Numbered from the stretch's first letter, positions 1 to 27,385 are shown. The stretch is 47,956 nt of DNA from Phycisphaerae bacterium (GCA_018052735.1 JAGPMT010000023.1:1-47956); one strand, 5' to 3'. The notes: generated by a model from the sequence alone, not told the origin. Program-made: numbers and translations.

Positions 1-1413
1 CTTGCACGGCGTCTCCGAAGCCGCATCCGGGTAATGGTAGCACAGCAGCGCCTCAATCAGCCGCCGGCAGCGGGGGTCAATCACCAGACGGCTTTGCCCG
101 TCGCCGGCCCGCAGCGCCGAGCGAATCAAACCGATTCCTTCATAAATCCGGCTGGCCCGATACTTCAGCCGAAAGCCCAGCGCCTTGAGTTCCCTGACTG
201 CACTGGTGCCCGTCACATCATTGCAGCCCGATCCCGCCGGATCGCAAAAGGTCATCACCACCTGCGACTCCTCACAGGGCGTCCGCCGCCGGATGGCCTG
301 CGCATGCTCGCCAATCAATCGGCGGGACTGCACATACTCATCAATCACCCGCACAACGCCGCTGCCGTCGGTCTGAATCCACAAACACACAAACGGATTG
401 ACAAACCCGAAATCCAGCGACCGGTACAGCGGCAGGCCGGCATCGTAGCCCGCCGGCCGCACATGCACCGCCGGATTGAACTCGGCAAACACCGCTTTTT
501 CCAGATTCGGACGCAGACACAGCATTTCCGATTCAAAAACAGCCCGGCTGCTCCGCCGCATCTGGCTGATGACATCATCAATCTTCAAATACCCCCGCGC
601 CTGCCGGGCCTTGCCCCCGCAGTCGCTGTTCAGCGGACACCGGCTGCACGACCGCTCCGGCCGGCACTGCTCGATGACCTCCCACACACACCACCGAAAC
701 ACCGGAATCCGCCGCCCTGCCGCTGTATCAATCAGCGTCTGCATCGGCCCGTACGGCCGGTGCATCGTGCTCAACAGCTCCATCGCCGCCGTCAGCTGCC
801 GGCTGCTGTGTGTTACAAAGTTGGCGGCAGCCAAAACCTCCGGATCAAACAGCTCCACCTCATCGCAGCGGAGCTTATGCACATGCAGACCGCGCACCGA
901 CGCGGCCGACTGGGCCAGAACCTGAACCGTTGCGCCGTTGACAAACCGGCATCCGTCCGCCAGCATCCGCCCGTCCAGATAATCCGAAAAGCCCCGCTGC
1001 ACAAACTAGCACAGGTAGTCATACATCCGCCCCGACTGCTGGCGCGAACCGGCCAGAATCAGCGTCCGGCAGTGCGGCTTAAACAGCCCTTCCAGCAGCG
1101 TCGCCGCGGCCGCCAGCTGCGTCTTGCCGCCGCCCCGGTTGGCCCACACAATACAATCCCCGCTGCAGCCCTGCCCGCTGTCCGGCTGCCGGCGCCATCC
1201 ATCCGCACTGTAGGCATGCCACAGATAATCCATCGGGCTGCTGTGTCCGGCACATACCCGCACCGCCGGAACCCGGTAATTCAGATACCTGCCAAGATAC
1301 CACCGAAGCCAGCGGCGGCTCTGCGGAGCGCGATGCCTCAAAGAGGCCTTCAACGGCTGCCGGTCTGTTCCGCCTGCTCGGCTGCTTGTCACGTCTGCCC
1401 TGCGTATCGTCAT
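1..1413 (-). CDS. terL: Phage terminase large subunit, interrupted by in-frame TAG, 3' end outside window
   Basis: This is the ATPase and nuclease motor that packages DNA into a phage-type capsid. The start follows a strong AAGGAGGA ribosome site. The Walker A motif ANRGGGKT lies at about residues 91-98. A TAG at 1006-1008 stops the frame after residue 135, but the same frame then stays open for 335 codons to the window edge and reads as terminase: a Walker B-like LRCDE near residue 184, a Cys cluster at about 242-265 (C242, C250, C256, C259, C265), and a nuclease motif LDFGFVNP with its Asp at about 334, followed later by FCDPAG. Translation ending at the TAG would lack Walker B and the whole nuclease. 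The TAG could be a nonsense mutation, a read-through site or a sequence error (CAG to TAG is one change). The family identity is clear from the motif order. Confidence 0.85.
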
Positions 1414-3442: not shown

Positions 3443-4075
3443 TCAATGCTTTTCTGACGCCACAATCTGCCGTGTCGAAGCCGACTGATGCGCCTGCGCC
3501 TCTTTGAAGCGGCCGGCCTGATCCGGATACAGCCGCTTAAACAGCTCGTTGCCGGCAATAATTTCCTGAAGCGCCTGCGATTTAGCCCGCGCCGTCTTGA
3601 GAAAGCCCGCCGCCCGTGCCCCATAGACCCCACCGACCAGTCCGGCCAGTCCGATGGCCAGTTCCAGAAGCCCATCGGCAGCCGCCCACACATCCGGCCG
3701 CTTGGCGGCATCCGCCTGCGCTTGGGCGGCTGCGGCCTTTGCTTCGTCCAGCAGCGCTGCACTGTTGTCTTCCTCCGGCCGCCAAGCCGGCAGCCCGTAA
3801 TCCAGCACAAACGCCTCGCTTTGCGCTTCTGCCAGCGCCGTCAGCCCGCACAGCGGCGATGAGCTGTTTTCCTCGGCCGCCGTTTCTGCCGCCTGCCTGC
3901 AGACGCGCCAATGAAGCCACGCATTCTCTTTCTGCTGTTCCGTCGCCGCATACCGCAGTCCGCAGCCGGCCAACAGCAGCACCGCCGCCGAAAGTGCCAT
4001 TATGCCTTTTGTGCTGTCTTTTTTCTGCCCGCTGTCTGCGGTAATCTGTAAACAGATTGCTCCCGTTTGTCCCAT
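3443..4075 (-). CDS. Small membrane protein in the phage-type gene set, function unknown
   Basis: A 210-residue protein. The start at 4075 is chosen over an upstream ATG at 4117 because a strong CAGAAAGGAGC site stands seven bases before it. A hydrophobic segment at about residues 26-38 (MALSAAVLLLAGCG) carries a lipobox-like LAGC preceded by a 24-residue polar N-terminus. A second hydrophobic stretch (LLELAIGLAGLVGGVYGA) lies near residues 135-155, and a polar helical tail follows. The arrangement, a Gly-rich membrane helix then a charged tail, recalls small phage membrane proteins (holin or spanin type), but that is only a resemblance. Its 18-nt leader is identical to that of the ParB-like gene at 26693. 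Confidence 0.6.
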   Translation of the reverse strand: MGQTGAICLQITADSGQKKDSTKGIMALSAAVLLLAGCGLRYAATEQQKENAWLHWRVCRQAAETAAEENSSSPLCGLTALAEAQSEAFVLDYGLPAWRPEEDNSAALLDEAKAAAAQAQADAAKRPDVWAAADGLLELAIGLAGLVGGVYGARAAGFLKTARAKSQALQEIIAGNELFKRLYPDQAGRFKEAQAHQSASTRQIVASEKH

Positions 4076-4225
4076 ACCGTGCTCCTTTCTGAAAATGCCT
4101 GCTGCCAAATATCCCAATGACAGCCCTGCGCGGTTACCCCGCGGGGGCTGGTCCTATCCGCTCCGCTATGTCCGTTGTATCCGGCTGTCTTTTTGCCTGT
4201 CTTTACCGTTTGCCTTGCCGGCGTC

Positions 4226-4510
4226 TTACGGGCCCCCGCCTTGTACGAAGTGTTCGGAATCCCGCATTTTCCTCTCGACCGCCTGCAGCCGGTATTCGTG
4301 GGCGATGCTTCTTTCCTGCAGCTGCTCCAGCTTCCGGCCGACCTCGTCCTGCGCTGCCAGAAGCTGCTTGACATCGTGGCTGACCATATCCAGCTGCCGC
4401 TGCAGATTGACCCAGCTGCCTACAATCAGTCCGGCCAAGGTTATCAGCTCTATCAAAACCGACACACTCACCCGCCGTTCCAGACGCCACCGCTTTTGTC
4501 CACCGCTCAT
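4226..4510 (-). CDS. Single-pass coiled-coil membrane protein
   Basis: A 94-residue protein: a basic N-terminus, one membrane helix at about residues 17-35 (SVLIELITLAGLIVGSWV), then a heptad-rich coiled coil to about residue 85. The ATG at 4510 is chosen because GAAGGAG stands seven bases upstream; a TTG at 4516 would be too close to it. Small membrane proteins with a trailing coiled coil are common in phage late regions. Here it is 150 bp upstream of another small membrane protein on the same strand. Phage origin is inferred from position and shape only. Confidence 0.65.
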   Translation of the reverse strand: MSGGQKRWRLERRVSVSVLIELITLAGLIVGSWVNLQRQLDMVSHDVKQLLAAQDEVGRKLEQLQERSIAHEYRLQAVERKMRDSEHFVQGGGP

Positions 4511-4561
4511 AAACAATCTCCTTCTCTTTTACTTCCATCCCATTACTTCCAACCAATTGTC

Positions 4562-5430: not shown

Positions 5431-6063
5431 CTACTTCCGCGCCAGTTTGACAGCCCAAGGCCGAAGAACCGTATCCGTCTGTCCGTCCCCGTCGGCATCA
5501 ATCGGCACACACAGCCCCTCCACAGCCCGCTGGTAGCAGCACCGGTAATAGTCTTTCTTCTGCCGCACCGCCTCCTGCCCGTCTGCATCCAGCGCTTCAA
5601 ACACCAGCGCCAGTGTCCCAAACACCGACGGCCGGCGCAGCAGCCGGCTATCGGCGCCGGTCCAGTCCGTCCCTGTCAATCCCAGCCGCTGCTGCAGGTC
5701 GCATTGGACCTCATAGGCCTGCACATCATACGACACAATCCGCCACAGCAGCCCCGACGCCGCACCCGCCGGTATCGCCGGCTGCTGGGGATCAGCCCGC
5801 AGCACCGATACTGTCAGATGCCCGCTGTCCGGCACTTGGACAATCTCATACGCCCCCGCAATGCTTCCATCCGTGCTCTGCAGCCACAGGATATGTCCGG
5901 CTTTGACCTGTGCGGCCGTAAAATCCGCACCGCCGGCGGCAAACTGCGTGCCTGCAAGAAGTCCGTTGGTCCCTCTGCACAGGACCTGTCCGTTCAAAAT
6001 CCACCGGTCGAACACCCCCGGCTCGTACCGTGCCAAATCCGCATCGCTGGAAAATCCGCTCAT
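5431..6063 (-). CDS. Phage head-tail connector-like protein
   Basis: A 210-residue soluble protein with an AAAGGAGGT ribosome site. It opens with an acidic helix (DADLARYEPG), has a beta-rich middle (GHILWLQS..DGAYEI-type strands at about 57-100), and ends with a helical segment followed by a Ca-loop-like IDADGDGQTD near the C-terminus. The order 'capsid protein then this protein' on the same strand is the usual place for a head completion or head-tail adaptor protein. From memory, similar proteins sit beside SU10-type capsid genes in planctomycete phage-like loci; this was not checked. No catalytic motif is seen. Confidence 0.55.
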   Translation of the reverse strand: MSGFSSDADLARYEPGVFDRWILNGQVLCRGTNGLLAGTQFAAGGADFTAAQVKAGHILWLQSTDGSIAGAYEIVQVPDSGHLTVSVLRADPQQPAIPAGAASGLLWRIVSYDVQAYEVQCDLQQRLGLTGTDWTGADSRLLRRPSVFGTLALVFEALDADGQEAVRQKKDYYRCCYQRAVEGLCVPIDADGDGQTDTVLRPWAVKLARK

Positions 6064-6969: not shown

Positions 6970-8124
6970 TTAACTGACTGCCAATCCGCGAATCACCCCG
7001 TGGGCCGACTCGTTGCGCAGCTCCAGCGTATATTCGCCAATCAGCTGGCCGCATTCATAATCGCCCCCGCTGGCCAAGGGCTTGAAATGAAAGCTTCGGC
7101 CGGCCAGCGGCAGCACCTTCACCCGCGACGAATCCAGCAGCAGAACCGCATCGGCCGGCATCCACCGCGTCGTAATAATCCGGCACAGCCCGAAATCGCT
7201 TTCATAGGCGCTGACGCCGTCGCGATAGACCGTATCGCCGGATGCATAGCCCCGCAGCGCACTTAAAAAGCCGTTTATCCGCCGCTTCTGCAGACCCCCG
7301 ACGACAATCATATCCACCGTGCCGCTGCTGTCTTCCCAGATTTTCCGCAGGGCCCAGTTGAGCTTGTCTTCATCCAGCGTCGCACCCGACGGAAATCCGT
7401 TTACTCCCGGCATAAACACATGGCTGACCAGATGCGCCAAAATCCCCCGCATCGTCCGCCGCACCGAGGTGCTGCCCTGCGGGTCGGCCGTCGGGGCCCC
7501 GCCGTTGATGACGGTGTTTTCCAAATCCCGCAGCAGTTCGCGCAGCCGCTCCTGCTTCTGGTAATCCATCTCATCGGCCAGCCCCAGCTGCGAGGCCGCA
7601 AGGTCGGTGCCGCTGACTTCCACCGCGGCGGTGAAAATCTGGGTATAGTTGCCGCACCGCTGACGCGTGGTAAACCGCGCCGCCGGCTTGTCGCCGCCTT
7701 CCAGCGCCGCATTGCCCAGAATGCAGAGCGTCTGGCCGGGAGCAATCGCATCCGCCACCGTGCCGGCATAGCTCCGCATCACCGTCAGCGTGCTGCCCGA
7801 TACCGCCGTTACCAGCATCAGTTCTCCCGACCCCTGCGGCTGAATCTGGTCCCCGGGGCGAAACCGGTCCGGGTGGGCTACATCAAACTCCGTTTCCGTT
7901 TCCGGATCGCCGATGGTCGTATCGGCAATCACATCCTTGTTCGGCAGCAGCGCATCTTCCAGCCATTCGTGATGCGTGCTGGTCGCCGCCCGAACCGGAT
8001 CGCCGAGAGCATCCAGCAGCGGCGTCTCATACGGCGAAACAATGGAAATCACATCCGATACATCTTCGGCCAATTCCGGCAGATTAACGCCGGCACTGTA
8101 GGTTGCCTTTCCGCTGAAACTCAT
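6970..8124 (-). CDS. SU10-type HK97-fold major capsid protein
   Basis: A 384-residue protein, typical of the SU10/DUF5309 capsid family. N-terminal signature: VNLPELAEDVSDVISIVSPYETPLLDAL, then a beta-rich domain. The middle QEVRELLRD-type helix reads here as YQKQERLRELLRDLENTVINGG. A glycine-rich central region follows, and the C-terminal half carries IVVGGLQKRRINGF and a late beta strand region (GEYTLELRNESAHGVIRGL). All are expected for HK97-fold shells of this family. The ATG at 8124 follows AAGGAAGGAG at good spacing; the TTG at 8130 would not. The gene is intact. It lies immediately downstream of a small scaffold-like protein and upstream of the connector-like protein on the same strand. 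Confidence 0.88.
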   Translation of the reverse strand: MSFSGKATYSAGVNLPELAEDVSDVISIVSPYETPLLDALGDPVRAATSTHHEWLEDALLPNKDVIADTTIGDPETETEFDVAHPDRFRPGDQIQPQGSGELMLVTAVSGSTLTVMRSYAGTVADAIAPGQTLCILGNAALEGGDKPAARFTTRQRCGNYTQIFTAAVEVSGTDLAASQLGLADEMDYQKQERLRELLRDLENTVINGGAPTADPQGSTSVRRTMRGILAHLVSHVFMPGVNGFPSGATLDEDKLNWALRKIWEDSSGTVDMIVVGGLQKRRINGFLSALRGYASGDTVYRDGVSAYESDFGLCRIITTRWMPADAVLLLDSSRVKVLPLAGRSFHFKPLASGGDYECGQLIGEYTLELRNESAHGVIRGLAVS

Positions 8125-8203
8125 ATGCAAACTCCTTCCTTATCAATTGCTATAAACCTGCTGTGTGTGCCACGGCATCGTGCTGTTGGCCTGCGGCACA
8201 GTT

Positions 8204-8509
8204 CTACACAAAACTCCGTCGGATGCGCATATATTCCTGCACATCAATCCGGCTGCCGCTGCGGGCGGCCGCACGCGCTGCCCGTTCCAAAGCCGCACGC
8301 CGGCCTGCCCCGAGCGATTCCCGCACCCCCTGCGTCTTGGGCTGGATGCCGCCTGCGCCCGGGGCCTCGCCGCCGGCTGCGGCGGCCTGCAGCGCGCGGA
8401 GATCTGCCTTCAGCGACTCAATTTCCTCCCGCAGCCGGTTCAGCTGTCCGCTGTCCGGTGTGTCGGGCTGTTCGGGATTTACGGCCGTGGGCTGACTGGT
8501 GTCTGTCAT
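8204..8509 (-). CDS. Small scaffold-like coiled-coil protein
   Basis: A 101-residue soluble protein: a Pro/Thr-rich N-terminus, a coiled coil (QLNRLREEIESLKADLRAL at about 24-43), a Gly/Ala linker and a basic helical C-terminus. The ATG at 8509 is chosen because CAGAAAGGAGC stands upstream; longer upstream starts lack a ribosome site. A small, helical, charged protein directly before the major capsid gene is the classic position of a scaffold or capsid-assembly protein, so that role is inferred from position and shape, not homology. Confidence 0.6.
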   Translation of the reverse strand: MTDTSQPTAVNPEQPDTPDSGQLNRLREEIESLKADLRALQAAAAGGEAPGAGGIQPKTQGVRESLGAGRRAALERAARAAARSGSRIDVQEYMRIRRSFV

Positions 8510-8609
8510 AACTGCTCCTTTCTGCAAAAACATTTTTCTGTTTACATTTTCCGACAAACAATTATCCTTGCATGCAAAGGATGGCGAACACATTTAAGGA
8601 GACATTCCA

Positions 8610-10770: not shown

Positions 10771-11304
10771 TCACAGAGGTTCTGTATCCCCTTTGGCCTG
10801 ATTGTACAGCGGCCCATTGTCTTGGCCGTCGCCATCGTCGGGATCATCTTCATCCTCCGTCAACGCCCGAATCAGCTTTTCGGCTTCTTCATCCGAAAGC
10901 AGCGGGGCTGTATCCGGCTTATCCTGACAGGCGATAGACTGCTCATAGGCATTGCCCAGCGACAGAATATCCAAACAGGTTTTGCGGATGGCCTCATCTC
11001 GGTTTTTGTCAGAACCGGCTGCCTGTGCCGAATCTTTGCAGAGCAGTTCAACCAGTTTGGCCGCTGCCATCGGCACGGCACGACCGATAATGCTTCGCCC
11101 TTCCATCAGTTTGATGCGAAACTGCAGCTGCAGTGCTGCATGCAGGCTGGAATCGTCCATCCAATCGGCAAAAGTCTTTGGCGATATGCCGCACTGGCTC
11201 ATTGCATCGGCCAGTGTTATATCCGTAGTGCGGTACAAGACCTCACAAAAGCGCTGCTGTCGGCTGTGCCGGCTGCTGGATTTCTGTTTTTTTGAGACAA
11301 ACAT
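10771..11304 (-). CDS. HTH protein, small-terminase-like
   Basis: A 177-residue protein with an Arg/Ser/Lys-rich N-terminus, then a DNA-binding helix-turn-helix: FCEVLYRTTDITLADAM and CGISPKTFADWMDDSS at about residues 20-60. A helical middle domain follows, then a very acidic tail (EDEDDPDDGDGQD). The ATG at 11304 follows GAAGGAG. N-terminal HTH, central oligomerisation helices and an acidic tail fit phage terminase small subunits of the type that open with a 'stepwise activation' HTH. The identity is inferred from shape and from standing with portal, capsid and large terminase on one strand. It could also be a simple transcription regulator. Confidence 0.5.
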   Translation of the reverse strand: MFVSKKQKSSSRHSRQQRFCEVLYRTTDITLADAMSQCGISPKTFADWMDDSSLHAALQLQFRIKLMEGRSIIGRAVPMAAAKLVELLCKDSAQAAGSDKNRDEAIRKTCLDILSLGNAYEQSIACQDKPDTAPLLSDEEAEKLIRALTEDEDDPDDGDGQDNGPLYNQAKGDTEPL

Positions 11305-11644
11305 TGCCTTCTCCTTCACAAATTCAAAAATTTTTTTCAGTTTTTTTCATCCCTGTTCGGCCTTCATCGCAGAGATATTTCCGAAATCAAAGGTCGTGTT
11401 TTTTGATGTTTTTCGAGGCTGTTATCTGTTTTTTTCTGCGAACTTTGCAATTCACGCACAGGGATTTCCAGATTGTTTCTGGATATCTGCGTGCGTAATA
11501 TGCAAAACGTTCAAAACTCTTTATAAAGCCCATTATCAGCCGGAAAAACGGCAATTTTTGCTAATGCATCCGCCCCCGAATGTACGACAATATACTCATC
11601 CAAAACAAGCTTCAGAAAAGAAACTGCCTTTGGGAACAATAACG
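11305..11644. other. 340-bp intergenic region between divergent genes
   Basis: The AT-rich left half (11310-11440) is T-tracted. At 11539-11552 stands CCGGAAAAACGGC, a poor relative of the CGGnAAAAATACCG motif found upstream of three other genes. A possible -10, TATACT, is at 11591-11596. No gene is seen in it. Confidence 0.4.
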
Positions 11645-12033: not shown

Positions 12034-13443
12034 CTATCGGTTTATCTGCTCGTCCAGCGGGCTGCTGAATACCACCTCGACCTGCCGTTCGGCCGGACGG
12101 GTGGGAAATACAGCCGCTTTGTCCAGCACTTCCAGAACCAGCCGGCAGATGTCGCTGATACCCTGACCATAGGTCAGCTGCTTGCGGCAGGTCTTGCTGA
12201 GCATTCCCATAAAGGTCATCTTCAATGCCACCGCACTGGACAGGTTGCCCAGCTTGTTTTTGAGCACCCCGGCCACCACAGGCGTTACGCCGCTGACTTT
12301 ATCCATTGCCTCGCGCACTTCCTGAATATGCTGGTTCTCGCTGGGATTTCCGCCATCGCCGCCGAACTCTTCGATGGCCGCATCCATATTGTCTGTGCAC
12401 CACATCCGCCCCGGGGCGATAGGCCGCTCGGCGATTCCGTCCAGCCCTTTGGCCAGATACATCTTGAAAGCCTGCATGGTAATCCGGCTGGCGCGGTCGC
12501 TTAAACGGGTGTTCAGCTCATCCTGCAGGGGGCAAAGCTGCTGAACATCGCTTAAGCCCTCGTAGCATCCCGGCTGGGGGAGATTCTGAATATGCACCAC
12601 CGGAATCCGCCCCAGCGGATGGACACCCTGCGCCGTCAGGATTCCGTCTTCATACCGCTGCCACGCCGACGGCCCGAGAATCTCGGTAACGGCCGCACAG
12701 CGGCGCTGGCCGAGGGCGCCTGTGCCCAGAAGCCGGCTCAGAAACGATGACTCCCCGGCGGCCGCATTTTTCCACTGGACAAAATGCTGCACATAATAGC
12801 GAATCCGCTTGTAATCCGTTTCTTCCAGGACGGGCAGCGCTCGGGCCGCATCAATCAGCTCCAGCGACACATCGCCGGCCAGACGCAACACGCTGTCGTA
12901 GGATGAAGGAGGGACGCAAAGGAGGCGATTGGAGGTGCTGTCGGCAAGACGTCCAGCCAGCTGGCCGCCCCAGCGGACGATGCAGTCCACAAAACCGTAG
13001 ACGCTGCCCAGCGTGCCCAATTCCTGAAAGAAAACCGTTCCGCCGCTGCCATCGAACACAGCTTTAAGAACTCCCTCTATGTCTCTGCGGCGATGCGCTG
13101 CGGCGGCTTTGCTCTTGATGGAAACCGGCCGGCCGAACAGAAAATCTACCATCGCATTGATGCGCCAGCCGATATCGTTTTCAATGACGACTTCTTTTCG
13201 CTGAATCTGACCGCCTTCCCGTGCCGGCTGGCCCGTGATGCGCAGCGGAAGCCCCGTTTCCTGCGCCTGCATATACCCCCGGCTGCTTTCGCTGCTGCGG
13301 TCTGTTTCGGTCAGCGGGTTGGTGTAATAATCCCACAGCCGCCCGAAGTATTGGGCTGCCTGCGGCCATCGCTGCTCAACAAGCCATTCCACATACGACG
13401 GCTCCAGCGAGGCATCATTGAAAATCTTCAGGTCAAATCCCAT
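12034..13443 (-). CDS. Phage portal protein, SPP1 gp6-like family
   Basis: A 469-residue portal of gp6 type, the dodecameric ring at the capsid vertex through which DNA enters. Typical features are the N-terminal WDYYTNPL region, the KEVVIENDIGWRINAMVDFLFGRP block (about 83-106), the mid-protein HPLGRIPVVHIQN (about 278-290), the DVQQLCPLQDELNTRLSD helix that forms the stem (about 301-318), and the SGVTPVVAGVLKNKLGNLSSAVAL loop near 400. Length and order match the family. AGAAGGA stands nine bases before the ATG. The gene is intact. It is 730 bp upstream of the HTH protein on the same strand, with a Cys-rich plus-strand gene between. Confidence 0.88.
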   Translation of the reverse strand: MGFDLKIFNDASLEPSYVEWLVEQRWPQAAQYFGRLWDYYTNPLTETDRSSESSRGYMQAQETGLPLRITGQPAREGGQIQRKEVVIENDIGWRINAMVDFLFGRPVSIKSKAAAAHRRRDIEGVLKAVFDGSGGTVFFQELGTLGSVYGFVDCIVRWGGQLAGRLADSTSNRLLCVPPSSYDSVLRLAGDVSLELIDAARALPVLEETDYKRIRYYVQHFVQWKNAAAGESSFLSRLLGTGALGQRRCAAVTEILGPSAWQRYEDGILTAQGVHPLGRIPVVHIQNLPQPGCYEGLSDVQQLCPLQDELNTRLSDRASRITMQAFKMYLAKGLDGIAERPIAPGRMWCTDNMDAAIEEFGGDGGNPSENQHIQEVREAMDKVSGVTPVVAGVLKNKLGNLSSAVALKMTFMGMLSKTCRKQLTYGQGISDICRLVLEVLDKAAVFPTRPAERQVEVVFSSPLDEQINR

Positions 13444-18399: not shown

Positions 18400-21339
18400 T
18401 TATTGCTCTTGGCCGGCAGCCGGAAGCTGTACATAGACGGTCGTGCCGACATCCGGCTGCGATTCCATCCGCACACTGCCGTCTTGGCGGTCCAGAATCC
18501 GCCGCACAATCGGCAGCCCCAGTCCCTGTCCGCCGTTGGAGCGGTCGGGACAGAGCTGGTGAAACAGCTCAAAGACCTTGTCGATGTGCTCCGGCGGAAT
18601 GCCGATGCCGTTGTCGCTGACGGCATACTCCACCCGGCCGTCGCCGCAGGAGCGGCCGGCAATGCGAATCCGGCACGGCCGATCCGGGTGGCGGTATTTG
18701 ACGGCGTTGTCCACCAGATTGGCAAACACCTGCCGAATCAGCACCGCATCGCCGCGGCAGGGCGGCAGGTTCGGCTCGATATCTACCTGTGCCCCGCAGG
18801 CGGTGATTTGAAAGTTCAGGTCGGCAACGGCTGACTGCATCAGGGCAGCCATATCCAGCTGCTGGGGATTGACCTGCAGCGTGCCGATGCGGCTCAGCCG
18901 CGACAGCCCATCCAGCAGGGCCTGCATCTTGCTGCAGCCGGCCTTGATAAACCGCAGCGATTCGGGCAGCTCCCGCCGCAGCAGTGTGTTCGCCTGCGGC
19001 GGCAGGGACCCCGCCGCCTCCTGCAGCACCGCCGTCAGCCGGGCAAGGTCCTTTTCCAGCTCGCCGGCAAAACCGGCAATGTTGACCAGCGGACTGCGCA
19101 GGTCGTGGGCGGCAATGAACACAATGCTCTGCAGCTCCTCGTTGCGCGTCTGAAGCTGCTGCAGCAGAAGCTGGCGGGTCTGCTCGGCACAGCGCCGCTC
19201 CGTGATGTCGCGCACAATCGCACAGTTGTATTCGGCGTCCTCATAGACCAGAAAATTGGCCGTTACCTCAACCGGAAAAACACTGCCGTTGCTGCGCCGG
19301 TGCTGCGATTCAAACCGCAGGGTCTGCTTTTCCTTCAGCTCCTGCCAGTGCTGCTGCCACCGCTGGGGCGTAAGCGACGGGGCAAAATCCCATACCGACA
19401 TCTCCAGCAGCCGGCTGCGGTCTAAACCCAGCGACCGGCAGGCCGCATCGTTGGCATAGACCACCCTGCCCTTGTGCGTCATCCAGAACATCGCCTCGCC
19501 GGCATGGTCCACTGAAAACTGCGTAAACATCAGCGCCTCTCTGATTTTCTGGCGCTCGGTAATGTCGGTAATAAATCCTTCGATGGCGGCAACTTCTCCG
19601 TCGGCATCGTACACGCCGCAGCCCTTCTCCCACATCCATTTTTCCTGCCCGTCTTTGGTGCGGATGCGATAGACAATCTGGTAATTGGTGCGGTTCTTCA
19701 GCGCCTGCCGGATTTCCTCCCAGACCCGCGCGCGGTCGGCCGGAACAATCAGCTTCCGCCAGACAACATGCTGGCAGATAAACTCCTGATCGGTATAGCC
19801 GGTCAGCTCCAGACAGCCCTTGCTGATAAACTGCATCGGCCAGTCCGGCTGGTCCAAGCAGCGAAACGCCGCCCCGGGCAGATTGCCCATCAGCGTCGTC
19901 TGCGCACGCCGGTTTTCTTCCAGCGCCTCCTCGATCTGGCGGCGCTGGGTGATATCCCGCACATGCTCGATGACGCCGGTTACAGCGCCGCTGGCATCCT
20001 GCATCGGAAAGGCGTTGATCTCCAGCCAGCCGGTCGGCCGGCCGGCCTCTGTCATCGGCACCACAGCCGACTGGGTCTGTCCGGTTTCCATTGCCTTCAG
20101 CGACGGACACCCCGCACACGGCGCCGACAGGCCGTGGTAGACCTCATAGCATTTGCGCCCTATCTGGCTGCCTTTCCGGCAGTGCCGCTTCTGCTGATAG
20201 ACATTGGCCCGCACGATATTGAACTGGGTATCCAGCACGCACAGCCCGTCCTGAATGCCGTCAAAAATCAAGCGCAGAAACGCCTCATTGTCCTTCAGCG
20301 CCTGACGGGCGGCCTTGGCGGCGGTAATATCATGCGCCATAATCACAAAGCCTTTCTCGGCATCCGGTGAATCCAGCGGGGCGATATGCATCTGGACATC
20401 GATAATCCGTCCGTCCTTGCGGCGCCAGCGGGTTTCTATCGCCGCAATCCCGCCGGACAGCGCCTCGGCATACAGCCGGCCGACCTCGGCGTAGTCTGCC
20501 TGCGACAGATACAGTTTCCGCGGGTCCTGCCCCAGCAGGTCCTCTGCGCTGTAGCCGGACAGATCAAAGAAGCGCTCATTGCCGTGTATCAGCCGGCGCT
20601 GGCGGACCAGCCCGATGCCGATGGGAGAGGCGCTGAAAATGCTGCTGATTTCGGCCTGATAAGTCTCCAGCATCTGCCGGATTCGTCTGCGTTCGGTGAT
20701 GTCCCGATCCGTCCCGCGGTAGCTGACAAGCCGGCCCTGCGGGTCAAACACCGGCACGCCGCTGGTCTCCAGATACACCTGCCGGCCGTCGCGGTGCAGA
20801 CAGATGTTTTCAAGCCCGCTGAAGGGTTTGGCTTCCGAAACACACCGCTCAAATACCGCCCGCACCCGTGCCGCTTCGTCGGGGATCATCACATCAAACG
20901 GCGTTTTGCCCAGCAGCTCCTGCGGCCGCCAGCCCAGCATCTGCTCAACCTGCGGACTGCAATAGGTGTAGCGGCCCTGCGTGTCCACCTCCCAGAACCA
21001 GTCGCTGGTGGTTTCGACCAGATTGCGGTAATGCCGGCGGCTGTCGGTCAGCTCCTGCTCGATGCGGTCCTTGATGAGGGCGTAAAACAGAAACGCCCAC
21101 ACAAAGGCCACCAGCACCCCGCCGAAGTTTTCAAAAAAGTTCCATTGAATCCGTCCGGCCAGACCCGACCATTCCAGAAACAAGCCGAAACCGTAAAAGG
21201 CCGTCAGCAGCAGCACCACCAGCAGCAGAATCGGCACCCCTGCCGATAAGTGCTTCCGCCGCCAGCCGAACAGCACAAAAAACGCCCCCGCCAAAGCGGC
21301 CGCTGCGCTGACCAAATCGACATAGGCAATCGGCTCCAT
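18400..21339 (-). CDS. Membrane multi-PAS sensor histidine kinase
   Basis: A 979-residue kinase. Three membrane helices (about 5-25, 35-57, 72-92) are followed by five PAS/PAC units, each ending in a DITER or DITQR-like motif. The third unit contains a cysteine cluster, CRKGSQIGRKCYE then PCAGCP. The kinase core has the H-box AAHDLRSPL (His at about 745), N-box NLVDNAVKY, G1 DNGIGIP and G2 GQGLGLPI. ATG at 21339 follows AGGAGGG and overlaps the TGA of the upstream membrane protein (TGATG), so translation is coupled. Its frame runs open further upstream, but only as a shadow. No response regulator is adjacent. The signal is unknown; the Cys cluster could hold a metal or sense redox state. Confidence 0.9.
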   Translation of the reverse strand: MEPIAYVDLVSAAAALAGAFFVLFGWRRKHLSAGVPILLLVVLLLTAFYGFGLFLEWSGLAGRIQWNFFENFGGVLVAFVWAFLFYALIKDRIEQELTDSRRHYRNLVETTSDWFWEVDTQGRYTYCSPQVEQMLGWRPQELLGKTPFDVMIPDEAARVRAVFERCVSEAKPFSGLENICLHRDGRQVYLETSGVPVFDPQGRLVSYRGTDRDITERRRIRQMLETYQAEISSIFSASPIGIGLVRQRRLIHGNERFFDLSGYSAEDLLGQDPRKLYLSQADYAEVGRLYAEALSGGIAAIETRWRRKDGRIIDVQMHIAPLDSPDAEKGFVIMAHDITAAKAARQALKDNEAFLRLIFDGIQDGLCVLDTQFNIVRANVYQQKRHCRKGSQIGRKCYEVYHGLSAPCAGCPSLKAMETGQTQSAVVPMTEAGRPTGWLEINAFPMQDASGAVTGVIEHVRDITQRRQIEEALEENRRAQTTLMGNLPGAAFRCLDQPDWPMQFISKGCLELTGYTDQEFICQHVVWRKLIVPADRARVWEEIRQALKNRTNYQIVYRIRTKDGQEKWMWEKGCGVYDADGEVAAIEGFITDITERQKIREALMFTQFSVDHAGEAMFWMTHKGRVVYANDAACRSLGLDRSRLLEMSVWDFAPSLTPQRWQQHWQELKEKQTLRFESQHRRSNGSVFPVEVTANFLVYEDAEYNCAIVRDITERRCAEQTRQLLLQQLQTRNEELQSIVFIAAHDLRSPLVNIAGFAGELEKDLARLTAVLQEAAGSLPPQANTLLRRELPESLRFIKAGCSKMQALLDGLSRLSRIGTLQVNPQQLDMAALMQSAVADLNFQITACGAQVDIEPNLPPCRGDAVLIRQVFANLVDNAVKYRHPDRPCRIRIAGRSCGDGRVEYAVSDNGIGIPPEHIDKVFELFHQLCPDRSNGGQGLGLPIVRRILDRQDGSVRMESQPDVGTTVYVQLPAAGQEQ

Positions 21340-21785
21340 CAGAAGCCCTCCTGCCGGCTGCCAAAGGCCATCCGCCCGCACCAGACAGCCAGCAGCACCG
21401 CGCTGCAGGCCAGCAGGAGATGCTCGCCCCAGTTCAGCGCCGCCCCAAAGACAAAGCCCTCCGCCACCGTCAGCACGGCCGAGCCGCTCATGCAGCCGAA
21501 ACTGGCCAGCAAAAGCCCCGTATCCGGCAGCTTCCGCAGATGGCGGAAGTTGACGGCGACGATGGGAATGATGCCCAGACAAATCAGCAGCATAATCGCT
21601 TCATCGTGGGGATTGTAGAAAATTTTCTCCCACGCCGGCGGCTGTTCGGTCTCGGGCGGTTCGGGAATGTTGTTTGCCATCAGCGCAGCGGCGCCCAAGA
21701 TCATCAGTACAAATATATAAATCTGGGCTCCCAGCAGCAGCGGATGCCGTCGGCTGATAGTTGTGTGATTCCTCGGTGCTGTCAC
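21339..21785 (-). CDS. Four-helix membrane protein coupled to sensor kinase
   Basis: A 148-residue protein with four predicted membrane helices (about 17-38, 63-78, 91-114, 120-138) and a periplasmic loop rich in Pro/Glu (NNIPEPPETEQPPAWE). A GTG start at 21785 is chosen because GGAGGA stands seven bases upstream; an in-frame ATG at 21854 lacks a ribosome site. The stop overlaps the kinase start, so the two are made together; it may form the sensor input unit of the kinase. No known family recognised. Confidence 0.65.
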   Translation of the reverse strand: MTAPRNHTTISRRHPLLLGAQIYIFVLMILGAAALMANNIPEPPETEQPPAWEKIFYNPHDEAIMLLICLGIIPIVAVNFRHLRKLPDTGLLLASFGCMSGSAVLTVAEGFVFGAALNWGEHLLLACSAVLLAVWCGRMAFGSRQEGF

Positions 21786-22821: not shown

Positions 22822-23268
22822 ATGACCATGCATCCCGTTTTGATGTCCGGCCTGTGGCAGGACCGGCGCAGGGATTGCCGGCGGAAGGCAGAGGAGCTGG
22901 CGGCAGCCCTTCAGCAACAGGCGTGGCTGTTCAGTCCGGCCCAGAAAGCCCTGCTGGAAATGATTCTGGACAAAGGCAGCTCGCTGGAGCAGATTGCCCG
23001 CCTGACCGGCCAGAACGCCTCGACCTTAAGCCGGCAGTTCGACCGCCTGATGCGCCGATTGACAGACCCACTGATTCGCGATGTGCTGCGTCTGGGCGAT
23101 AAACTGTCGCCGCTGGAAGCGGCCATTCTGCGGGATTATTTCCTGTGCGGCATGAGCCAGAAGGCCGTCATCGGCAAACTCGGCTGCAGCCGCTATCGCC
23201 TCCGCAAGACGCTGGATCGCATCCGCCGGCCTGCCGCAGGCAAACCCAAAATCCTAAAAACCGCCTAA
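22822..23268 (+). CDS. Two-HTH DNA-binding protein, sigma region 4-like
   Basis: A 148-residue basic protein with two helix-turn-helix segments. The first reads SSLEQIARLTGQNASTLSRQ at about residues 54-73; the second reads LSPLEAAILRDY then MSQKAVIGKLGCSRYRLRK at about 96-132, like region 4 of sigma factors or phage late-gene regulators. AGGAG stands six bases before the ATG at 22822. It is the first gene after a 1-kb non-coding region and is 15 bp upstream of the ABC ATPase, so the two form an operon. A palindrome overlaps its promoter. It may regulate this locus or the dispersed phage-type genes; that is inference. Confidence 0.65.
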   Translation: MTMHPVLMSGLWQDRRRDCRRKAEELAAALQQQAWLFSPAQKALLEMILDKGSSLEQIARLTGQNASTLSRQFDRLMRRLTDPLIRDVLRLGDKLSPLEAAILRDYFLCGMSQKAVIGKLGCSRYRLRKTLDRIRRPAAGKPKILKTA

Positions 23269-23283
23269 TAAGGAGAAGCCGCT

Positions 23284-23949
23284 ATGTACGACATTACCAT
23301 CAACCAGCAGATAGACTGGCAAGAACCCCAAACCCCCAAGGCCCGGCAGCTGATGCATCTGTTCGGTCTGCGTCCGGTGCAGCTGGGCAAACGCCGTCTG
23401 CAGCACACCTGCCGCCTGTCGCTGCGGCCGGGCGACATCGTGTATATCACCGGCGCCAGCGGTGCCGGCAAAACAGTCCTGCTCAACGCCATCTACCAGC
23501 AGATTCCCGACAACCAGCGGATTCGTCTGGATGACATCCCCATCGAAACCGGCCGGCCTCTGATTGACTGCGTGGACGACCGCTCGCTGTTCGATGCGCT
23601 GGAAATACTCAGTCGCGCCGGCCTGAGCGATGTATTTTGTGCCCTTCAGCCGCCCGACCAGCTCAGCGAAGGCCAGAAGACCCGCTACCGCTTGGCACGG
23701 GCCCTGATGAGCAGCCGAACGGTGCTGTTTGCCGATGAGTTCACCAGTTCGCTGGATCGCATTACCGCCGCCGTCATTGCCAACCGCCTCCGCTGGGCCG
23801 CCGGCCAGACCCAGCGCATCTTCGTGCTGGCATCCTGCCACGAGGATATCCTGCCCGACCTGCTGCCCGATATCCTTATCGTCAAATACCTGACGGGAAA
23901 AACCGAGACCTTCTACCGGGACAAGCGGCGCGGAACGGGACTCAATTAA
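23284..23949 (+). CDS. Soluble ABC-type ATPase
   Basis: A 221-residue ATPase with all ABC motifs: Walker A GASGAGKT (about 60-67), signature LSEGQ (about 121), Walker B TVLFADEF and D-loop SSLD (about 140-155), and H-loop His in ASCHED (about 180). There is no membrane-spanning domain or partner permease nearby, so it is not an ordinary transporter. AAGGAG stands before the ATG, 15 bp after the HTH gene. From memory (not checked), ABC ATPases of this sort are found fused or adjacent to GNAT-fold proteins and ParB-like proteins in phage loci; here GNAT and ParB-like genes follow within 3.5 kb. Confidence 0.75.
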   Translation: MYDITINQQIDWQEPQTPKARQLMHLFGLRPVQLGKRRLQHTCRLSLRPGDIVYITGASGAGKTVLLNAIYQQIPDNQRIRLDDIPIETGRPLIDCVDDRSLFDALEILSRAGLSDVFCALQPPDQLSEGQKTRYRLARALMSSRTVLFADEFTSSLDRITAAVIANRLRWAAGQTQRIFVLASCHEDILPDLLPDILIVKYLTGKTETFYRDKRRGTGLN

Positions 23950-24085
23950 GCGCAGCAGGTTCTTTGACAAGTTCATAGAGTTTCGGCCGGCCTGCTTGGC
24001 AGCCGACAGGAAGGACCGGCGGACAGGTCCGCTGGATGTGTTTTAGGGATGTGTCTTGCAGCCAGCCGGCTGGAAACAGCACCTC

Positions 24086-24385
24086 TCAGGACTTTCTGCG
24101 TTCGGGCAGCACTGTACTGCTGTCCAAGGCATCTTCTACAATCTGACGCGCCCAGTCGTACTGATTGGGCAACATCAGTTCGGGAACGGCAGCCGCACCC
24201 AGCGATTCATAAAGCTCCAGCCGCGCACATCTTGCTTGGCTGTTGGTGCAGTAGTGCTCCACCGTCCGCTCCACCAGTTCCGGCATCGTTTCGTAATTGC
24301 TCAGAAGAAAATGACACTGCTCCATAAACGGGCAAACATACCCGCCTTGTTCTTTTGCACCCTTCATTTTCTTTAGCATATCCAT
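24086..24385 (-). CDS. Small Cys-rich protein, paralog of 11645-11935
   Basis: A 99-residue soluble protein with a four-Cys pattern: CPFMEQC (about 18-24), then HYC and RCAR, followed by VPELMLPNQYDWARQI. It shares the cysteine spacing and the tail with the plus-strand gene at 11645-11935. AAAAAGGTAG stands before the ATG. It lies between the ABC ATPase and GNAT genes on the opposite strand. The likely metal site is inferred from the Cys pattern; role unknown. Confidence 0.65.
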   Translation of the reverse strand: MDMLKKMKGAKEQGGYVCPFMEQCHFLLSNYETMPELVERTVEHYCTNSQARCARLELYESLGAAAVPELMLPNQYDWARQIVEDALDSSTVLPERRKS

Positions 24386-24516
24386 TTAAGCTACCTTTTT
24401 TCGAAATTATTCAATCCCCATCGAGCAAACCACGAACTTCGATCGCTCCATTTGTATGACAACTCTACCAAGGCAGCCTTAAAATCACAAAAAGCGATGC
24501 ATTCGTCTATATAAAT

Positions 24517-24534
24517 TATCGGTAAAAATACCGA
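24517..24534 (+). promoter_or_regulatory. Shared motif copy 3, palindromic form
   Basis: ATCGGTAAAAATACCGAT is a perfect inverted repeat (ATCGGTA, four-base centre, TACCGAT). It shares AAAAATACCGAT with the copies at 13761 and 15332 and stands about 47 bp before the TATAAT at 24582. Confidence 0.6.
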
Positions 24535-24581
24535 TTGGGTAAAGTAATTTCCCCCAATTTTTCACAATTTTTTTCTGGTCC

Positions 24582-24587
24582 TATAAT
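24582..24587 (+). promoter_or_regulatory. -10 box of the GNAT gene promoter
   Basis: TATAAT, 22 bp before the ATG at 24609; the -35 is weak (TTTTCA or TTCACA), consistent with activation from the upstream motif. Confidence 0.55.
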
Positions 24588-24608
24588 CCGTTAAAAAGGA
24601 AGGAGTAT

Positions 24609-25400
24609 ATGTCTATGCATCCATCGGATTGTGTCAGTATTTTGAAGTATCTGACGGTTGCCGCCGGCAGCCGCAGCGACTATGAGGAATTGGCCGTCTT
24701 TCACTACCGCAATCCAAGCCCGGGTCCGATTCGGTTTATCTACAAGCTGATTGACCAGCATCCGCAGCGGCGTCTGGCGGTGCCGGCTGCCGGAGTGATT
24801 GTCTATGGCCCGCCGGCGGCCAATCTGGCAATCCGCAATCAGGTGCTGGGGGGCTTTTTTGCCGGGCTGGACAGAGCCGACGGGCTGGCCCTGCTGAATG
24901 CCGGTATGCTGTGCATCCGGCGGGTCATCATCGAACCGCGCTACCGCGGGCTTGGGCTGGCAAGCCGGCTGGTAAAAGAAACATTGCCCCTGACCCAAGC
25001 GGCAATGGTGGAAGCCGTCAGCACCATGGGCTGCGTGCATCCGTTTTTTGTCCGGGCGCAAATGACCGAGTACATCTGCCCGCCCGATGTCAAGACAAGC
25101 CGGCTGCAAGCGGCCCTTGAAACCGTCGGCATTGACCGGTCGCTGTGGCTGGACGGACAGGCCGTGCAGGCGGCCATCGACGCCCTGCCCGACGGGCAGA
25201 AGGCCTTTGTGCAGCTGCAAATCGAGCGGTTTATCCAGAAGTTCCCCCGCCAGCGCCGGCTGACAGACACAGCCAAGCGGCTGGAGTTTGTTCTGTCGAA
25301 ACTGACCGGCTCCAGCCGGTATTACCTGTGGCTCAATCCCGAAAAATCGCTGCCGCAGCAAATTTTTGCTTTGCAATCAGCCGGCAGCGGCGTAGAGTGA
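24609..25400 (+). CDS. GNAT-fold acyltransferase, Mom-like candidate
   Basis: A 263-residue protein. The acetyl-CoA-binding motif A is clear at about residues 100-118: RRVIIEPRYRGLGLASRL. It is followed by a strand and helix region VEAVSTMGCVHPFFVRAQM (about 135-153) that in this group replaces the usual motif B. The C-terminal 100 residues are helical and basic. The upstream AAGGAAGGAG gives a good ribosome site. The association with a soluble ABC ATPase and a ParB-like protein recalls phage DNA-modification acyltransferases related to Mu Mom, but that is an inference from context and memory. An ordinary N-acetyltransferase is possible. Confidence 0.65.
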   Translation: MSMHPSDCVSILKYLTVAAGSRSDYEELAVFHYRNPSPGPIRFIYKLIDQHPQRRLAVPAAGVIVYGPPAANLAIRNQVLGGFFAGLDRADGLALLNAGMLCIRRVIIEPRYRGLGLASRLVKETLPLTQAAMVEAVSTMGCVHPFFVRAQMTEYICPPDVKTSRLQAALETVGIDRSLWLDGQAVQAAIDALPDGQKAFVQLQIERFIQKFPRQRRLTDTAKRLEFVLSKLTGSSRYYLWLNPEKSLPQQIFALQSAGSGVE

Positions 25401-25445
25401 TAGAATAGCCAATTACCCAAGACAGAAAAGAAAGGATAAGACTCT

Positions 25446-26498
25446 ATGCAGACCCGATACATCCTGTTTATACTGGTTCTCCTTGCAGTCCTGCTGCCCT
25501 TGCCGGCCTGCCGCAGAAAGGCGCCTGCCCCGCAGCCTGCCGACAGCAACACCCCTGCCAGCGTGCCGGCCGCACGCATCAGGCCCTCTGCCCCGGTCCA
25601 AAGACCCGACTCGCAGCCGGCCGCCGCCAAAGGCCAGATTGGCGCCGACGCTGCCCCGCTGGATGGGCTTGTCTGGCTGAAGGGACAGCCCGTCCGCTTC
25701 CAGCCGCAGAAGGTCTATGTAGTGGAGTTTTGGGCCACTTGGTGCGGACCTTGCCGCCAGAGCATTCCCCACCTGACCCAGCTTCAGAAGCAGTTCAAAG
25801 AGAAAGGCGTTACCGTCATCGGCATTTCCAATGAAAGCGCTGAAACCGTCCGGTCGTTTGTGGAAAAAATGGGCGACCAGATGGATTATACCGTCGCCGT
25901 GGACAAAGACGGCAAAGCCGGAAAGAATTATATGGAGGCCTACGGCCAGAACGGCATCCCCACGGCTTTCATTGTGGACGGGGCCGGCAAAATCGTCTGG
26001 CTGGGACATCCGCTCAACGGGATGGACGAAGTCCTTGCGCAGGTGGCCGCCGGCACCTTTGACCCCTCGGCATGGGCCAAAGCACGCGCCGAACGCGAGG
26101 AGCTGGAGCGTCAAATCGAGGAACTGTTCCGACAGTACTTCAGCGGGCTGAACAGCAATCAGCCGTCTGAGCAGATGCGCGCCATAGCCGGCCAGATTAT
26201 CGAGAAGGCCCCCGCCGACATCCTCAACGAATTTGCATGGGCGATTCTGACCGAAGTGGAACAGCCCCGGCGCGATTATGCCGTAGCCCTTCAGGCCGCT
26301 CAAAAAGCCAACACGCTGGCCGAAGGCAAAGACGCCAGCATTCTGGATACCTATGGGCTGGCGCTGTTTAAGAACGGCAGCATCGCCGAAGCAATCGCCG
26401 TCCAGACCAAAGCCGTTGAGCTGGCCGCCGGCAGCGAAGCCATGCTCAGCCAGTTCAAAGCCCGTCTGGAGGAGTTCCAAGCCGCCGCGGCACAATAG
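25446..26498 (+). CDS. TlpA-like thioredoxin lipoprotein with TPR-like tail
   Basis: A 350-residue lipoprotein: signal ending LPLPAC, a Pro/Ala-rich linker (about 25-65), then a thioredoxin-fold domain of the TlpA/ResA type with FWATWCGPCRQS (about 95-106) and the cis-Pro segment GIPTAF near 176. The C-terminal third has helical repeats (about 235-345, QAAQKANTLAEG and DTYGLALFKNG), TPR-like. It probably reduces disulfides in periplasmic proteins or cytochromes. It lies 45 bp after the GNAT gene; whether it is co-transcribed is unclear. Confidence 0.85.
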   Translation: MQTRYILFILVLLAVLLPLPACRRKAPAPQPADSNTPASVPAARIRPSAPVQRPDSQPAAAKGQIGADAAPLDGLVWLKGQPVRFQPQKVYVVEFWATWCGPCRQSIPHLTQLQKQFKEKGVTVIGISNESAETVRSFVEKMGDQMDYTVAVDKDGKAGKNYMEAYGQNGIPTAFIVDGAGKIVWLGHPLNGMDEVLAQVAAGTFDPSAWAKARAEREELERQIEELFRQYFSGLNSNQPSEQMRAIAGQIIEKAPADILNEFAWAILTEVEQPRRDYAVALQAAQKANTLAEGKDASILDTYGLALFKNGSIAEAIAVQTKAVELAAGSEAMLSQFKARLEEFQAAAAQ

Positions 26499-26565
26499 CC
26501 GCCCGTTTTCGATGCCTGTTTAGACGCCGTGCACACCCCGTGTGCACAGACCTGCCGAACCGAGC

Positions 26566-26618
26566 CGTTCAGCCGGCCGCGGGCGCTGTCCGCTGCGCCG
26601 ACTGAACGCACCCTTTTT
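26566..26618 (+). terminator. Rho-independent terminator after TlpA-like gene
   Basis: CGTTCAG (26566-26572) pairs with CTGAACG (26602-26608), with further pairing inside, followed by TTTTT at 26614-26618. An 8-bp perfect inverted repeat, GTGCACAC with GTGTGCAC (26529-26547), lies just upstream and lacks a T-run. Confidence 0.65.
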
Positions 26619-26670
26619 ATCCTTGTCCTGCCGTGAAGATACCCGCAGGGGATTTGCCTGCATTTTCCCT

Positions 26671-26688
26671 GCATTTTCAGAAAGGAGC
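26671..26688 (+). promoter_or_regulatory. Shared 18-bp leader with ribosome site
   Basis: GCATTTTCAGAAAGGAGC precedes the ParB-like start by five bases. The same 18 bases occur on the minus strand at 4081-4098, before the membrane protein at 3443-4075. CAGAAAGGAGC alone also precedes the scaffold-like gene (minus, 8514-8524). Confidence 0.6.
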
Positions 26689-26692
26689 CTTT

Positions 26693-27385
26693 ATGCAGAC
26701 ACAGCAGACGATTCTTTCGCTTCCCTTATCCAGCTTGCTGCCGCATCCGGCCAATCCGAACCGGTTAAGTGAGGCGGCCTTTGCCAAACTGCTGCGGCAT
26801 ATCGGGCGGACCGGGCAGTATGAACCGCTGGTCGTCCGCCGCCATCCGCAGACGCCCGGGGCGTATCAGATTCTCAACGGCCGCCACCGCGCCCGCGCCT
26901 TAAAGCAGCTGGGGTATTCCCACGCCGATTGCGTGGTGTTTGAGGCCGATGACAATGCGGCACTGGTGTATCTGATCAGTCTCAACCGGCTCAGCGGACG
27001 GGACAATCTCTACAAGAAAAGCAAACTCATTGAGATGCTCTGCCGGCGGTTCAGTTCCCGCCAGCTGGCTGGTCTGCTGCCCGACAGCCGCACGGCCATC
27101 GACAAACTGGCCGGCTTGTCGGCTTCCCAGCCGGCACCGAAGACCAGCACGCTGCTGATGCCGATGACCTTTTTTGTGGATCCGGACCAGCACGCCCTGC
27201 TGCTGCGGGCCTTTGAGAAAGCACGGGCTGATGTGCCGTCCGGCACGGCTACCCAGAAGCGTCTGCAGGCTCTGCTGCATATCGTCGGCCGGTTTGTCGA
27301 AACCAGTCCCACCCAGCCGGCGGCACAGCGCGCATCCGCCGCAGCCGGCGGCACAGAGGCACACAGCGCAGGGATAACGCCGTAA
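26693..27385 (+). CDS. ParB/Srx-fold N-terminal domain protein
   Basis: A 230-residue protein whose first 95 residues are a ParB-like N-terminal domain: LPHPANPNR (about 16-24), GQYEPLVVRRH (about 41-51) and the nucleotide-site motif LNGRHRARAL (about 62-71). There is no ParB C-terminal dimer or clear HTH; the second half is helical and ends in Ala/Pro low complexity. It is not the chromosomal ParB, because there is no ParA neighbour and no standard HTH. Single ParB-like domains occur in phage genomes as DNA-binding CTPases or nucleases. ATG at 26693 is supported by the shared leader and AAAGGAG. It is convergent with ftsH, 16 bp apart. Confidence 0.75.
   Translation: MQTQQTILSLPLSSLLPHPANPNRLSEAAFAKLLRHIGRTGQYEPLVVRRHPQTPGAYQILNGRHRARALKQLGYSHADCVVFEADDNAALVYLISLNRLSGRDNLYKKSKLIEMLCRRFSSRQLAGLLPDSRTAIDKLAGLSASQPAPKTSTLLMPMTFFVDPDQHALLLRAFEKARADVPSGTATQKRLQALLHIVGRFVETSPTQPAAQRASAAAGGTEAHSAGITP

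Follow-up and report, generated by a model that had tools for sequence, protein, structure and literature searches.

The 47,956-nucleotide stretch of Phycisphaerae bacterium DNA analysed here (GCA_018052735.1 JAGPMT010000023.1:1-47956, below called the window) carries, between positions 22,822 and 27,385, genes for a helix-turn-helix (HTH) protein, a soluble ABC ATPase, a GNAT-fold protein and a ParB/KorB-like protein. These are best read, with a probability of roughly 0.7, as the packaging-linked front of a phage-derived, chromosomally inherited system resembling a gene transfer agent (GTA), present in Phycisphaerae and in some lineages beyond. Taken by itself, the link between this module and DNA packaging is very probable, and it is reasonably likely that particles with host DNA are made. 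The direct support comes from the gene set and its operon order, the fusion of ABC and GNAT, the folds and motifs of the proteins, purifying selection, and gene trees that agree with the host families.

A conserved operon next to terminase genes

A profile of the GNAT retrieved 229 relatives from cellular genomes, of which the best 80 are all titled Planctomycetota, many of them Phycisphaerae or Sedimentisphaerales; the viral collection gave only two, at 31–33% identity. Among the Planctomycetota loci with at least 3 kb of flank on both sides, 41 of 48 have HTH, ABC, GNAT and ParB genes in the same order and on one strand. Because it recurs in so many related loci, the grouping is not due to chance. 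When all loci with enough room are counted, the HTH gene is upstream of ABC in 54 of 60, ABC is upstream of GNAT in 63 of 65, and ParB is downstream of GNAT in 59 of 64. Within 8 kb, 31 of 45 loci have a gene for the small terminase subunit (TerS); for the large subunit (TerL) the count is 25 of 41 within 9 kb. The arrangement is tightest in families f9 and f10 of the window's class, where the six genes HTH-ABC-GNAT-ParB-TerS-TerL make up one compact operon.

The window has a version of this operon that is opened up by two further genes, for a TlpA lipoprotein and a Cys-rich protein, and its TerS and TerL genes lie elsewhere in the window. Loci with a Cys-rich gene in the gap between ABC and GNAT are confined to some of those that are related to the window's family. 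The TlpA gene occupies the same spot in G030 and L161, while most relatives are without it and have ParB directly after GNAT. Both genes are lineage-specific insertions and stand outside the conserved operon. No permease gene adjoins the ABC ATPase in the window. The two-HTH protein that opens the operon is likely to be a regulator, judging from its sigma-70 region-4-like domains.

Seven genomes encode ABC and GNAT as a single fusion protein. The fusions include two f8 genomes (open frames of 582 and 488 residues) and are also found in f32, f21 and f47; in f32 the gene next to the fusion is that for TerL. The pairing or fusion of an ABC ATPase with this type of GNAT places the proteins in the ABC-GNAT (MK0520/COG2401-type) group. 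As a separate observation, in family f34 (L252–L255) ABC adjoins a shorter GNAT, and about 10 kb around the pair gave no match to TerL, portal or major capsid protein (MCP), nor did the rest of the genome match MCP; f34 possibly represents a packaging-independent use of the pair.

The sequence-only reading of this DNA had proposed that the four genes form a possible DNA-modification module of a dispersed system, a view to be given up if they did not co-occur elsewhere. The genes that it named (HTH, permease-less ABC ATPase, GNAT, TlpA lipoprotein, ParB_N and Cys protein) are all present, the four form one module, and the neighbourhoods of their relatives exclude the refuting case. The module does belong to a dispersed system, namely a phage-derived set of capsid and packaging genes that is found in the window and in its relatives.

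Counterparts in phages

Pseudomonas phage nickie, Klebsiella phage pJN2-26 and Rhizobium phage RHph_Y2_11 share the order ParB - ABC - GNAT - DNA-binding protein - TerL - portal - capsid, and their TerL, ABC, GNAT and ParB proteins match the planctomycete profiles. The earlier statement that ABC and GNAT partners occur near ParB-like genes in phages is thereby verified. In nickie, a DNA methyltransferase gene sits between ParB and ABC. More broadly, the ABC-GNAT fusion or pair matches 68 phage records, and the GNAT of Escherichia phage Cyrano is annotated as an MK0520-type 'ABC-type ATPase fused to a predicted acetyltransferase domain'. A 39-kb contig of the viral collection (IMGVR_UViG_3300031673_016560; L279/L285) has the same portal-to-hub cluster as the chromosomes and is probably a chromosomal fragment that was called viral.

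Inheritance, distribution and selection

The 118 genomes of the window's order contain GNAT in 88 cases, MCP in 80 and portal in 82, nearly always as a single copy, and 65 have all three. The MCP orthologues of the order are mostly 60–81% identical. Of 294 genomes sampled across the phylum, 50 have GNAT and 43 have MCP, and the two overlap in 34 (Fisher p 4e-24). With family labels as a proxy for the host trees, the GNAT, MCP and portal trees each have the minimum number of label changes, a value as low as this being reached in none of 200 shuffles. The head locus and the packaging locus are about 63 kb apart in G151, 130 kb in G211 and 460 kb in G359.

Ratios of nonsynonymous to synonymous substitution (dN/dS, NG86) are 0.06–0.17 for MCP, 0.15–0.18 for portal, 0.15–0.20 for TerL, 0.27 for ParB, 0.31–0.35 for GNAT and 0.29–0.35 for ABC; the HTH gene is saturated and less clear. 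By this measure, portal, MCP and GNAT are under purifying selection. In G021 and G034, which are close relatives, ABC and HTH are 64% and 67% identical, while MCP and portal are 97% and 94% identical. ABC and HTH thus diverge much faster than the head genes, and the accessory module therefore evolves quickly. In G211 the portal is in two parts, about 67 kb apart on contig 1 (near 3226193 and 3293822; L307, L308), each an open frame. A split portal as a shared trait of that family was rejected, since its other members have an intact portal.

The GNAT protein and its comparison with Mom

Nine residues are invariant in the GNAT proteins of planctomycetes and phages (H32, Y33, R76, N97, R105, R113, G116, E135 and Y238). 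The FFVRAQM region of the window protein, which the sequence-only reading had taken as unusual, proved to correspond to the family consensus FFExAGM, an ordinary GNAT motif. A structure model (pLDDT 88.9) was compared with solved structures by VIA-align, and the top match was phage Mu Mom (8bv8), with Z 12.8 over 168 aligned residues. Less than 1 Z below it come glyphosate N-acetyltransferase, RimI and Naa60, and in a Foldseek ranking Mom was fourth. The GNAT profile gave only weak GNAT matches against PDB sequences (best E 0.013). Membership of the Mom family by sequence profile was rejected (hhalign E 0.1–0.18), although the weak alignment, whose E is not significant, does pair the HY motifs. 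The structural match to Mom, first in rank, is thus tied with those to ordinary GNATs.

As summarised in PMC7824862, Iyer et al. (2013) predicted acylation of a DNA base by a GNAT coupled with an ABC ATPase in phages. Because of this prediction, marking of DNA is a reasonable hypothesis for the planctomycete proteins. Acylation of DNA by the ABC-GNAT pair, by analogy with that prediction, is offered tentatively, at somewhat less than even odds.

The ParB/KorB-like protein

The window ParB matches ParB/Noc in PDB sequences (E 3e-10). In structural comparison its model aligns with Noc at Z 14.5 and with KorB at Z 13.4 over 141 residues, both domains being covered, and the protein has the ParB N-domain followed by an HTH domain that characterizes the ParB/KorB family. 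By analogy with ParB, Noc and KorB, it may act as a CTP-dependent DNA clamp. A role as the chromosome-partitioning ParB was considered and rejected: the window protein scores 45 bits, below the TIGR00180 cut-off of 58.45, while a separate ParB on G000:C41 reaches 186 bits.

Capsid, packaging and neighbouring genes in the window

The operon genes and the phage-derived genes of the window are listed in Table 1.

Table 1. Positions of the operon genes and of the phage-derived genes in the window, with the evidence for each.
Gene product	Position	Strand	Evidence
Two-HTH protein	22822-23268	+	sigma-70 region-4-like HTHs, aa 38-79 and 93-132; PF04545 8e-6, PF08281 4e-5
Soluble ABC ATPase	23284-23949	+	PF00005 7e-17; phrog_293 5e-30; phrog_11143 5e-25
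Cys-containing small protein	24086-24385	-	between ABC and GNAT
GNAT-fold acyltransferase, ABC-GNAT family	24609-25400	+	PF13508/PF00583 weak; phrog_886 1e-7
TlpA/ResA-like lipoprotein	25446-26498	+	PF00578 1e-20; between GNAT and ParB
ParB/KorB-like protein	26693-27385	+	PF02195 2e-7; start 26693 likelier than 26633
Portal	12034-13443	-	phrog_104 7e-16
TerS-like protein	10771-11319	-	phrog_2538 0.0045 (weak); clusters with TerS-position genes of relatives; 44% identical homologue adjoins G071 portal
Scaffold protein	8204-8593	-	cluster of orthologues located between portal and MCP; Phage_scaffold match (4e-6) of the G117 member
MCP	6970-8130	-	phrog_1328 6e-83
Conserved post-MCP gene, head-connector-like by position	5431-6063	-	orthologue cluster; G117 member without family match
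Small coiled-coil protein with a single transmembrane segment, holin/spanin-like by appearance only	4226-4516	-	orthologue cluster, 11 genomes
Conserved lipoprotein after the transmembrane protein	3443-4117	-	orthologue cluster, 11 genomes
TerL copy	1-1260	-	in-frame TAG 1006-1008; ATPase domain; truncated by contig start

TerL was detected with phrog_2, while PF03237 missed it or gave a weak match. The compared TerL sequences keep the motifs WANRGGGKT (in which one residue varies), KLRCDE, a DFG(F/Y)-type aspartate, CDPAG and DH-x-x/I-DALRY; the Walker A, Walker B-like and nuclease aspartate motifs are thus conserved. A second copy, at G000:C14:6387-7456, is 89.6% identical to that of the window over 979 bases.

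In families f7 and f2 and in some f1 members, a block of tail-like genes (e.g. L107/L108 in G117) lies between the head-connector-like gene and the transmembrane-protein gene. Position and faint similarity are the grounds for regarding the block as tail genes and one of its members as a tail hub; this hub-like gene is found in 58 of the 118 genomes of the order. Against Pfam and PHROGs the tail-like genes of G117 gave essentially no match, apart from a faint Dit-like match for the hub.

A PAS-type sensor histidine kinase is encoded at 18400-21582 in the window. Like this one, such kinases of several relatives have the packaging operon or TerL in their neighbourhood. A regulatory role is conceivable, although kinases of this type are abundant.

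Proposed mechanism and alternatives

In the proposed mechanism, the HTH protein would most likely regulate the operon, and the ABC ATPase and GNAT would form one ATP-driven acyl-CoA enzyme acting on DNA. The ParB/KorB-like clamp would load on DNA, and ABC, GNAT and ParB together would prepare or mark it before packaging. TerS and TerL would then pump it via the portal into heads built of scaffold and MCP. The formation of heads, the presence of host DNA inside them, and a modified DNA base as the GNAT product are predictions of this scheme. In its most specific form, the scheme is a planctomycete GTA that acylates or otherwise marks the DNA it packages, with a ParB-type clamp, itself coupled to terminase, guiding the ABC-GNAT enzyme; this form is possible but rather unlikely.

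Several observations weigh against a packaging-linked, GTA-like system. The window TerL copy is interrupted by the in-frame TAG at 1006-1008, and the second copy on C14 is incomplete, its 5' side being lost at the contig end. Sixteen genomes of the phylum have GNAT without MCP, and nine have MCP without GNAT. The Z of Mom is tied with those of N-terminal and small-molecule acetyltransferases, and the profiles of GNAT and Mom do not match significantly (hhalign E 0.18 and 0.1), though these profiles are small and a very distant kinship is possible. Lastly, in a search that did not extend to other tail types, the tail-hub-like gene was absent from the window genome and from several 99%-complete members of family f1. 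Transfer to recipients is therefore doubtful in the window's lineage, and if delivery has been lost there, the system may do something else.

The alternative that survives best keeps the module linked to packaging and changes the substrate: the GNAT would transfer its acetyl group to a protein (RNA polymerase, a nucleoid protein, TerL, portal or capsid) in a switch driven by the ABC ATPase. This is a serious contender, if short of an even chance. RimI, NatA, NatC and Naa60 match the GNAT model at Z 11.2–12.3, tied with the 12.8 of Mom, and two phage GNAT families in polyvalent proteins have been grouped with RimI-like protein acetyltransferases (PMC5512222). However, the Mom alignment is the longest (168 residues vs about 120–153), the ParB/KorB partner and the adjacency of terminase genes point to DNA, and the published prediction (PMC7824862) favours a nucleobase.

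A defence or anti-restriction module on a phage-derived locus, giving protection from nucleases and having no packaging role, is a good deal less probable. Mom-type marks are established as a shield of phage DNA against restriction (PMC7824862), and the methyltransferase gene of nickie would fit such a function, but the module is constantly placed with terminase genes. PADLOC found no specific defence family, only generic ABC matches and a weak ParB/methyltransferase match.

That the genes are a fossil prophage, fragments of phage origin without current function, is improbable. The interleaving with host genes, the stop in the window TerL, the lack of the tail-hub gene in part of the family and the interrupted portal of G211 would all suit such decay. 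Against this, most genes have a dN/dS far under 1, most genomes of the order keep single-copy orthologues whose frames are open, and the order of the operon is kept over several families.

Recurrent infection of planctomycetes by an active lineage of temperate phages would account for the module in distant phages and for three viral contigs with 63–70% identical MCP. It is still less probable, being opposed by the excess of cellular over viral-contig relatives of GNAT (229 vs 2), by the chromosomal head-tail cluster on the 39-kb 'viral' contig, by the family-congruent trees, by loci 60–460 kb apart, and by the G+C content of the module, which resembles that of the host genes around it. The view that these are ordinary cellular genes with no relation to one another (the ATPase of a transporter, an acetyltransferase for small molecules and the chromosomal ParB), to which the generic ABC and GNAT domain matches might lend themselves, is hardly credible, contradicted as it is by the conserved operon, the fusion, the nearly constant position of ABC upstream of GNAT, and a separate chromosomal ParB of far higher score.

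If the GTA-like reading is true, a class-wide inherited packaging operon with an ABC-GNAT-ParB front would provide a tractable, host-maintained form of a module so far known from phage genomes and computational prediction. Two questions would become testable: the function of ABC-GNAT enzymes, and the way in which such systems select DNA or make it ready for packaging.

Comparison with known systems

GTAs, as viriforms, are recognized by phage-derived proteins, endogenisation (often in several loci) and vertical inheritance, and further by the encapsidation and delivery of host DNA (PMC9662315). Tailed-phage homologues sufficient for a head and a motor are present here (portal, MCP, scaffold, TerS-like protein and TerL). 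They are endogenised over several loci 60–460 kb apart, with the window genes interleaved with host genes, and the GNAT, MCP and portal trees, read against family labels, indicate vertical inheritance. RcGTA, BaGTA and BhGTA are alike in having phage head and packaging genes that are vertically inherited at several chromosomal loci; unlike theirs, the particles and DNA transfer of the planctomycete system are so far predictions, and the window's lineage lacks the tail-hub gene. The text of the viriform paper mentions no ABC, GNAT, acetyltransferase or ParB gene (PMC9662315), and no GTA of Planctomycetota was found in the literature searched.

The components have relatives of their own. Mom of phage Mu shares the GNAT fold and an HY motif at a similar place, but the phage Mu record has no ABC or ParB gene beside mom, and the profiles do not match significantly. 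The window ParB has the N-domain and HTH fold of the ParB/Noc/KorB CTPases, but no ParA was noted beside it, and the chromosomal ParB is a different gene. The homologous genes adjoin TerL and portal in SSU5-like, nickie-like and Rhizobium phages. These are replicating phages, however, and their order is ParB-ABC-GNAT-HTH-TerL as against HTH-ABC-GNAT-ParB-TerS-TerL in planctomycetes. Closest in concept is the ABC-GNAT system predicted by Iyer et al. (2013) to modify DNA, as summarised in PMC7824862: there too an ABC ATPase is paired or fused with a GNAT, and phage homologues are named MK0520-type. The planctomycete version differs in being chromosomal, vertically inherited and tied to ParB, TerS and TerL. 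It thus combines an ABC-GNAT module, predicted from phages to modify DNA, with capsid and packaging genes that are inherited vertically.

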